Positions 2,116 through 5,200 of a DNA stretch of 64,000 bases are shown here, one piece after another. Position numbers and translations under genes: made by a program. The notes beneath the pieces are model-generated. The model was not told the DNA's origin. It saw only the letters and a program-made list of their open reading frames with translations, and did no database searches. The DNA is from Tubiluchus corallicola (lineage: Eukaryota; Priapulida; Priapulimorpha; Priapulimorphida; Tubiluchidae): contig JAQGDQ010000785.1 of assembly GCA_030141605.1 (NCBI GenBank), positions 1 to 64,000 of the forward strand, read 5' to 3'. Position 1 is the stretch's first letter. Each line of letters begins with the position of its first letter.

Positions 2116-2250
2116 CTCCTCGGAAGTACTTTTGTCTTGCGGTCGCTGTGAATTACCAGTCGAAGTCGTTGGTGAATTAGTTAATGGCAGTAAATCTGGT
2201 AACACAGTACTCTGTCTAGCTCCAGCACCACTCATAACAAATTCTGATTC
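2116..2250 (-). CDS. Kinase exon 22 (last exon in window)
   Basis: 135 nt, 45 codons, phase 0 to 0, encoding [20 protein letters not shown] and a Ser/Thr/Asn-rich tail ending TSEE. Donor GTAATA. The first 50 coding bases and the 3' splice site are also the seed of the 99-bp array at 2201-3887. Confidence 0.85.
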
Positions 2251-5200
2251 CTAAAAGTGCAAAGTAAATCAAACACACATTGAATACAATCAAAACATGA
2301 ACACGGTACTCTGCCTAGCTCCAGCACCACTCATAACAAATTCTGATTCCTAAAAGTGCAAAGTAAATCTAACACACATTGAATACAATCAAAACATGAA
2401 CACGGTACTCTGTCTAGCTCCAGCACCACTCATAACAAATTCTGATTCCTAAAAGTGCAAAGTAAATCAGACACACATTGAATACAATCAAAACATGAAC
2501 ACGGTACTCTGCCTAGCTCCAGCACCACTCATAACAAATTCTGATTCCTAAAAGTGCAAAGTAAATCAGACACACATTGAATACAATCAAAACACGAACA
2601 CGGTACTCTGCCTACCTCCAGCACCACTCATAACAAATTCTGATTCCTAAAAGTACAAAGTAAATCAAACACACATTGAATACAATCAAAACACGAACAC
2701 GGTACTCTGCCTAGCTCCAGCACCACTCATAACAAATTCTGATTCCTAAAAGTGCAAAGTAAATCAGACACACATTGAATATAAACAAAACATGAACACG
2801 GTACTCTGCCTAGCTCCAGCATCACTCATAACAAATTCTGATTCCTAAAAGTACAAAGTAAATCAAACACACATTGAATACAATCAAAACACGAACACAG
2901 TACTCTGCCTAGCTCCAGCACCACTCATAACAAATTCTGATTCCTAAAAGTGCAAAGTAAATCAAACACACATTGAATACAATCAAAACACGAACACAGT
3001 ACTCTGCCTAGCTCCAGCACCACTCATAACAAATTCTGATTCCTAAAAGTGCAGAGTAAATCAAACACACATTGAACACAATCAAAACATGAACACGGTA
3101 CTCTGCCTAGCTCCAGCACCACTCATAACAAATTCTGATTCCTAAAAGTGCAAAGTAAATCAAACACACATTGAATACAATCAAAACACGAACACAGTAC
3201 TCTGCCTAGCTCCAGCACCACTCATAACAAATTCTGATTCCTAAAAGTGCAAAGTAAATCAAACACACATTGAACACAATCAAAACACGAACACGGTACT
3301 CTGCCTAGCTCCAGCACCACTCATAACAAATTCTGATTCCTAAAAGTGCAGAGTAAATCAAACACACATTGAACACAATCAAAACATGAACACGGTACTC
3401 TGCCTAGCTCCAGCACCACTCATAACAAATTCTGATTCCTAAAAGTGCAAAGTAAATCAAACACACATTGAACACAATCAAAACACGAACACGGTACTCT
3501 GCCTAGCTCCAGCACCACTCATAACAAATTCTGATTCCTAAAAGTGCAAAGTAAATCAAACACACATTGAATACAATCAAAACACGAACACGGTACTCTG
3601 CCTAGCTCCAGCACCACTCATAACAAATTCTGATTCCTAAAAGTGCAAAGTAAATCAAACACACATTGAATACAATCAAAACACGAACACGGTACTCTGC
3701 CTAGCTCCAGCACCACTCATAACAAATTCTGATTCCTAAAAGTGCAAAGTAAATCAAACACACATTGAATACAATCAAAACACGAACACAGTACTCTGCC
3801 TAGCTCCAGCACCACTCATAACAAATTCTGATTCCTAAAAGTGCAAAGTAAATCTAACACACATTGAATACAATCTAAACATGAACATTTAATAACTGGC
3901 AGCCAAAACTTTGGGCTTGCAAAGCAAAGGTTTCTGGTTCAAATCCAGGCTAATTTTCAATATTTTTCATATATCTTTTCTTTCAGCAATACTTGGTTGT
4001 TACTGCACATGTTTATAACATTGGAAATTAAGATATTAACCCGAATAGTAGCAATACTTTCTTCTTTTTTTACATAATGAAAATCTTAATCTATTTATAA
4101 AAGATAATATTATGAAACATTTAGCATATATTAAAACAAGAATGACTCACATCATGATCTCGATTAGGCATAGATATGGGCCGGTCTCGGTGAAGTCGTT
4201 CAAGATGGCGACTGATCGCTTTTGATGCTGGTTGAGATTGCCGTCCAACAGGAGCCTGACGCAACTTATCCCTCTGTAAAATAAAGCAACTCGTCAAAAA
4301 CAGAACAGTAGACAAAGTGCAAACATGGGATGCATATACTGTGGGCGTGCGCAATGACTCGCTTTCTTAGAACAGCATTTGCTTTGAGAGCATGTAAAAT
4401 AATGTTTCTTAACAGAAAGTTAAATTGTGTTATAAACTGAATACTGGACAAGATTTCAAATAAACAAGTAAGTAAGAAAAAACTGTTTTACTTTTTGCGA
4501 GACACAACATAGTAGCAAAATGACACTCATCTGTAGTGTAAGAAATAGAAAGAAAACAATAAGGTGTCTTTTTAATGATGCAATAAAATCAAAATTTAAT
4601 CAATTTCTTATTCAAAAAATGGTCATAAAAGGAAATGTAAAAATAATCTGGAGTGAACCCAGATTTGAACCACGGACCATTGATTTACAAGCTCAACATG
4701 CGAGACCGCAAATCATTCCAGTCCCTTATGATCAAAGCACTTCTGATTAGTTCACTACAGTACCTAAACAATTAGATTAATTTTTTAATTCACTTTTACC
4801 CACTATAGAGCAAAAGTAATAAAAGGTTTTTTATTCATGACCAAAGTGGCGTTTACGTAACTTAATACTCAACTCAATACATTTATTTGTCTGAATAATC
4901 ACATTAAATTACAGTGCATGCAATTATGATACATATATACACAGAGAGGACGTGGCGAAAAACCAAATGGTCGCCAAGTTGGGCCTGGAATATGGAGTGC
5001 ACACAATGAAATTTCAACTTTACATAAAATGAAACCAACAAACCAATCAGATAAATTCAGACATCGTAACAAAAAAAGTTTCGTTGCATCATTAATCTCA
5101 TTTCGAAATAAAGCACGAGCAAGTTAAAAGTGTAGCCTTACACGTCGAGCATTCACTAGCGTTCCATCTCCATTTTCGTCTTCTTCATCGTCTTCTGGTG

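Follow-up and report, generated by a model that had tools for sequence, protein, structure and literature searches.

How does a gene find the start of one of its exons when that start stands in seventeen near-identical tandem copies? This question is raised by a locus in a 64,000-nucleotide stretch of DNA (the window below; G+C near 35%), in which a 99-bp minisatellite carries the acceptor of a predicted protein kinase exon, together with the first bases of that exon, seventeen times in a row. Our preferred answer, to which we give a probability of about 0.7, is that the array is a minisatellite of the type called "mirage", which arose by duplication of the boundary between an intron end and an exon start in a GCK-IV kinase gene, is mostly bypassed by splicing and has no function of its own.

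The host gene

The gene lies on the minus strand, and its kinase-domain exons, up to and including the C-terminal edge of the domain, are found between 34.5 and 13.4 kb (13424–34576) by tblastn with the human TNIK kinase domain as query. The joined kinase peptide matches Pfam Pkinase at 3.8e-62, and it matches fifteen PDB sequences at E 1e-90 or better, every one of them TNIK, MAP4K4 or MINK1 (worst E 6.7e-169). By these similarities, and with the N-terminal kinase domain in place, the gene is a GCK-IV kinase of the MAP4K4/TNIK/MINK (Misshapen) type. The kinase exon just past the activation loop is present in two tandem 58-nt versions (16548–16491 and 16197–16140, minus strand), which are probably mutually exclusive exons of the catalytic domain, since 58 is not divisible by three, so that inclusion of both would shift the frame. 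Farther downstream the adjoining candidate exons 9767–9720 and 9672–9551 (minus strand) encode similar peptides and may represent a second small duplication of an exon. The exon modelling from 13.4 to 5.2 kb is rough, and some of the ends used for scoring and simulation are off by one base or more; the array is unaffected by this.

The last three predicted exons in the window, 5236–5142, 4273–4151 (123 nt, phase 0 to 0) and 2250–2116 (135 nt, phase 0), all on the minus strand, join in frame. The seventeen acceptors have as their upstream partner the donor of the second of these, GAT|GTGAGT, and the third, called the real exon here, begins at the acceptor TTTTAG|GAATCAG at 2250 and stays open to a predicted donor, GAG|GTAATA, after 2116. 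Its 3' end is a prediction, and CTG|GTAATT after 2157, which scores 6.0 against 5.7 for the predicted donor (general matrix, see below), is another candidate because the window shows no further exon. The label "exon 22", given to the real exon in the preliminary description, is not supported, as our rough model puts it at about the 24th position. The array is located in the linker part of the kinase gene. No convincing match to a CNH domain is found in the 64-kb window (best E 1.5); the domain would fall beyond window position 1, and its loss from truncated products is expected by analogy with the family architecture as outlined in passages of PMC8203206.

Upstream of the kinase gene and on the same strand there is perhaps an INTS4-like gene, to judge from weak minus-strand Pfam matches at 38364–38690 and 54389–54754, one to the C-terminal domain of Integrator subunit 4 (E 4.6e-5) and one to a HEAT repeat (E 0.004), both below the curated cut-off. 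An Rfam tRNA match of 37.5 bits at 42876–42940 (minus strand), which is not called by ARAGORN, is perhaps a tRNA-derived SINE or pseudogene.

Structure of the array

Tandem Repeats Finder (TRF) reports a 99-bp period at 2201–3887 in 17.0 copies, with 97% matches and 0% indels, and the acceptor motif TTTTAG|GAATCAGAATTTG occurs seventeen times on the minus strand, at 3834, 3735 and so on to 2349 and 2250, in constant 99-bp steps. When the units are dissected at their natural edges, the array occupies 1683 bp (2205–3887, minus strand) plus the tetramer TGTT at 2201–2204, and each unit consists of about 49–53 nt of intron end with its acceptor and 46–50 nt of exon start. The acceptor motif is intact in all seventeen units, every one of which has the boundary TTTTAG|GAATCAG followed by 46–50 coding bases. 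We number the units in the order of transcription; unit 17, which holds the real acceptor, runs on into the open predicted exon, so the array has the genuine boundary at one of its ends, where its exonic part is 50 bases long (2250–2201). These findings bear out the preliminary description of a periodic array of seventeen 99-bp units at 2201–3887, seeded by an exon start with 50 coding bases and grown upstream, so that sixteen near-identical acceptors precede the real one. It had also proposed a recent expansion or homogenisation that included the coding part, and this is supported by the pairwise identity among the units, which averages 96.9% with a minimum of 93.9%.

Thirteen of the 99 unit columns are variable, nine of the 53 intronic and four of the 46 exonic ones, and a comparison of these counts gives no clear depletion of the kind that selection on the decoy acceptors might leave. 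Interior units 2, 3, 4 and 8 are identical to one another; edge unit 1 differs from the consensus at four places, and so do interior units 9 and 12. Variants are held in common by units 11 and 13 and by units 12 and 14, at an offset of two units, and by units 6 and 9, at an offset of three. CpG transitions account for two of the variable columns (-48 and +44), which hold 12 of the 32 deviating cells by a hand count from the variant table. A T>A change at -21 breaks a TTGAT motif in unit 1, the first-transcribed decoy, and in unit 16, which adjoins the real site; the resulting branch-point difference is suggestive, but it is a post hoc observation on two units, and all seventeen units have an alternative TTTAC at -15.

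The unit matches nothing in the window beyond its seventeen array places (blastn, E 1e-3), a result that lends no support to a dispersed satellite; recursive splice sites, in which the AG is followed at once by a donor (AG|GT), were rejected because all seventeen boundaries are AG|GA. We note that the upstream array edge is adjoined by a tRNA-like stretch (3888–3965, plus strand) that is 80% alike over 35 nt (E 0.001) to another at about 4650–4740 (minus strand). Both contain the B-box-like GGTTCAAATC, and they are possibly old SINEs.

Choice among seventeen acceptors

Splice sites were scored with a general matrix of approximate frequencies, which replaced one that had been trained on the kinase gene itself (12 acceptors, 9 donors) and proved to be overfitted. 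With the general matrix the decoy acceptors score 5.3–5.8 and the real one 5.6, within a range of -1.4 to 14.0 for the other modelled acceptors of the gene. With the gene-trained matrix the array acceptors, the real one included, score -1.3 to 6.2 and mostly 2.5, and all of the training acceptors are higher (8.1–17.0). Splice-site strength thus does not single out the real acceptor under either matrix.

What does set the real acceptor apart is the exon that it defines. Measured to the real donor, the real exon is 135 nt long and the decoy-defined exons are 234–1719 nt long; the 17 better-supported exon models of the gene, the real exon among them, range from 45 to 150 nt. Read in the frame of the real exon, all sixteen upstream acceptors lead to a stop, after 19 amino acids in fifteen cases and after 26 in the other (unit 11); the preliminary description had every decoy lead to an in-frame TGA, which agrees with these stops, identified as TGA by eye. 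Because the last acceptor alone gives an ordinary exon length to the real donor, we infer that exon definition would be the main rule by which the acceptor is chosen, that most decoys would be ignored, and that leaky products with their premature stop would be destroyed. Bypass of the decoys is in this sense a deduction from genomic DNA, and a kinetic choice, which would favour the first decoy, is plausible because the decoys score as the real acceptor does and the first of them comes just some 315 nt after the upstream donor. The preliminary description offered two outcomes, use of the last acceptor or many truncated isoforms without the CNH domain; the amphioxus mirages, with which normal splicing is reported to persist (PMC3087553, PMC3902484), would point to the former.

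A donor in unit 13

The decoys had been described as lacking a donor, which is wrong for unit 13. There a C>G change at position +31 of the exon, counted as an offset from its first base, creates the donor GAG|gtaggc, which scores 9.2 bits with the general matrix, as against 5.7 for the predicted donor of the real exon. Its duplex with U1 is worth -9.3 kcal/mol, that of the real exon's predicted donor -6.7 kcal/mol, and it surpasses 13 of the 16 donors of the gene that were tested, the other three being stronger. Decoy units also carry a weak donor, AAT|gtgtgt, of 4.7 bits with the same matrix and -1.9 kcal/mol in the U1 duplex (tried for decoy units 1, 6 and 13). Among all 297 single substitutions of the consensus unit, the change found in unit 13 is the one that gives the strongest donor (runner-up 8.9 bits). 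The gene-trained matrix disagrees, giving the unit 13 donor 6.9 at most, which is not the best of its unit, and ranking AAT|gtgtgt (6.9) above the real donor (5.5); the U1 duplex check sides with the general matrix.

The acceptor of unit 12 and the donor of unit 13 would together delimit a possible complete cryptic poison exon of 130 nt (2616–2745, minus strand) with a stop after 19 amino acids, and unit 13 by itself would give a 31-nt pseudo-exon (2616–2646, minus strand) whose frameshift leads to a stop in the real exon that follows. The poison exon of units 12 and 13 is a prediction from these scores, and unit 13, which owes its good donor to a single substitution, would be the main risk that the array carries. 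A rival reading is a substantial leak, in which decoys, above all this 130-nt exon, enter a sizeable share of transcripts, and the resulting mRNAs with a stop cause less kinase or a CNH-less protein to be made. Decoy acceptors that equal the real one in score, the 9.2 bits and -9.3 kcal/mol of the unit 13 donor and the ordinary size of the cryptic exon all point that way; but passages of PMC3087553 and PMC3902484 report that normal splicing persists with amphioxus mirages, donor matches this good are not rare by chance (of the window's 4307 GT sites on the minus strand, 35 reach at least 8 with the general matrix), and the gene-trained, overfitted matrix does not rank the unit 13 donor first even within its own unit. 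We consider a substantial leak rather unlikely. A bolder reading, in which the mirage is just giving rise to a new exon and intron and the 130-nt exon already acts as a copy-number-variable poison exon that tunes the amount of full-length kinase, seems to us improbable.

Origin and growth

The mirage-type minisatellite that we favour is bounded by two copies of a 4-bp microhomology, TGTT in the sense of the transcript (AACA on the plus strand). The downstream copy lies inside the real exon at 2201–2204 and the second at the upstream array edge at 3884–3887 (both minus strand), and their separation is 1683 bp, or 17 x 99. Because TGTT marks either end of the array, with exactly 17 units from one copy to the other, the founding event may have been a microhomology-mediated tandem duplication between two such tetramers. 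Growth would have followed through slippage or through unequal exchange, by a single unit or several at a time, and then homogenisation; exchange of blocks of several units fits, since variants are shared at offsets of two and three units.

Minisatellites are common in this DNA, where TRF arrays cover 9388 of the 64000 bases of the window (14.7%). The introns of the kinase gene contain two more, at 17257–18808 (28 bp x 55) and 20887–21688 (89 bp x 9), and others in the window are at 41201–41863 (34 bp x 20), 44385–44751 (25 bp x 15), 53588–54034 (64 bp x 7) and 54699–55073 (34 bp x 11). When the 14 TRF arrays of the gene part were compared with the exon models, only the 99-bp array overlapped an exon; a TAA-type array at 23863–23976 lies right against the donor, GTATGT, of another kinase exon, whose end is near 23982 (minus strand). 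Random seeding of seven intragenic arrays hit a splice boundary at least once in 27% of trials when 17 exon models were used and in 36% when 24 were, in a rough simulation for which the seven were hand-picked from the TRF list and placement was treated as uniform. The arrays at 11503 (110 bp x 1.9), 30557 (59 bp x 2.0), 31701 (81 bp x 2.1) and 23863 (the TAA type, for which TRF has a second entry of 28 bp x 4.0), as well as several short-unit arrays, were left out; with them included, the chance of capture would be higher. Since minisatellites are common here and the chance is 0.27–0.36, capture of a boundary needs no special cause.

To the possibility that the copy number or the whole array is an assembly artefact we give little credence: an aberrantly assembled mirage is reported for amphioxus BflGb6 in PMC3087553, but here distinct unit variants form an ordered mosaic, unlike a simple copying error, and tandem arrays with imperfect units are frequent elsewhere in the window. 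Even less credible is a selected regulatory device, in which the copy number of the array determines how much of the kinase is full-length and how much truncated. The intact acceptors of all seventeen units, a period that is a multiple of three and a stop for each of the sixteen decoys could be features of such a device, and the MAP4K4 linker of rat and human is described in part of PMC8203206 as a zone of heavy alternative splicing. Mostly intact acceptors are, however, expected without selection at 97% identity, exonic variable columns are not clearly depleted relative to intronic ones (4/46 vs 9/53), and chance capture of a boundary is likely enough. Least credible of all is that segment 2250–2116 is not an exon and that there is hence no real acceptor: when the last three predicted exons are joined and translated, their peptide finds nothing in the PDB beyond chance (best E 0.1), but the segment has an acceptor, 45 open codons, a donor, a phase 0 that agrees with exons 5236–5142 and 4273–4151, and an exon-like G+C of 0.44.

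Comparison with known mirages

A mirage-type array, as we read the kinase array, is a phenomenon already known. Mirages have been published in amphioxus, where, according to the mirage passages of PMC3087553 (see also PMC3902484), RT-PCR suggested no interference with regular splicing; in the literature searched they were found in these two lancelet papers only. The first of them credits the name to a 2002 paper (Canestro 2002, NAR), and its authors say that mirage repeats could serve as cryptic sites, and a model for new introns was put forward; the second adds a mirage in PGBD5 and cites troponin C. As in the amphioxus mirages of Adh3, BflGb6, BflGb9, PGBD5 and troponin C, so far as those passages describe them, the units of the kinase array span an intron/exon boundary with its splice signals, with the genuine boundary in the edge unit; BflGb6, which repeats an intron end and the start of exon 2, has the same intron-3'-end/exon-start layout. 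The kinase array has more units, seventeen as against six or three by haplotype in BflGb6 and 2–7 in PGBD5, and its unit length of 99 bp compares with 150–160 bp in BflGb6, 157 bp in BflGb9, 10–72 bp in Adh3 and 60 and 108 bp in PGBD5. Mirages are also characterised by a homogenised interior from which the edge units are left out, and by length polymorphism or somatic instability. In the kinase array four interior units are identical, but edge unit 1 is no further from the consensus than interior units 9 and 12. BflGb6 has haplotypes of different length, whereas the kinase array is known from one sequence, and its host, a GCK-IV kinase gene, is not named in the mirage passages of the two papers. 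By its anatomy, then, the kinase array would be a large mirage.

The Rogers model of intron gain from tandem-duplicated proto-splice sites, as presented in PMC3087553, likewise has a duplicated boundary that provides ready-made splice signals, and a donor that arises inside a repeat there gives a potential new exon. The kinase array departs from it in that its boundary is AG|GA and not AG|GT, and that a strong donor is present only in unit 13, where the product has a stop. TERT VNTR6-1, an intronic VNTR in a study of that gene's splicing, is also an intragenic minisatellite; the unit of the kinase array includes an acceptor and coding bases that belong to its host gene. To the known kind the present analysis would add the founding microhomology, the estimate of chance capture and the predicted poison exon in units 12–13.

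Significance

The array is a natural test of splicing choice among seventeen near-identical acceptors whose main differences lie in their position and in their downstream context, and it could separate a first-come (kinetic) choice from exon definition. With a G+C near 35%, lower than that of Branchiostoma, the host may well not be a lancelet. If it is not, the array would also be a mirage outside the group from which the mirages found have been reported. If the unit 13 donor is used, the array would be a mirage that is turning into an exon, a step that was proposed for the amphioxus globin genes in the mirage passages of PMC3087553.
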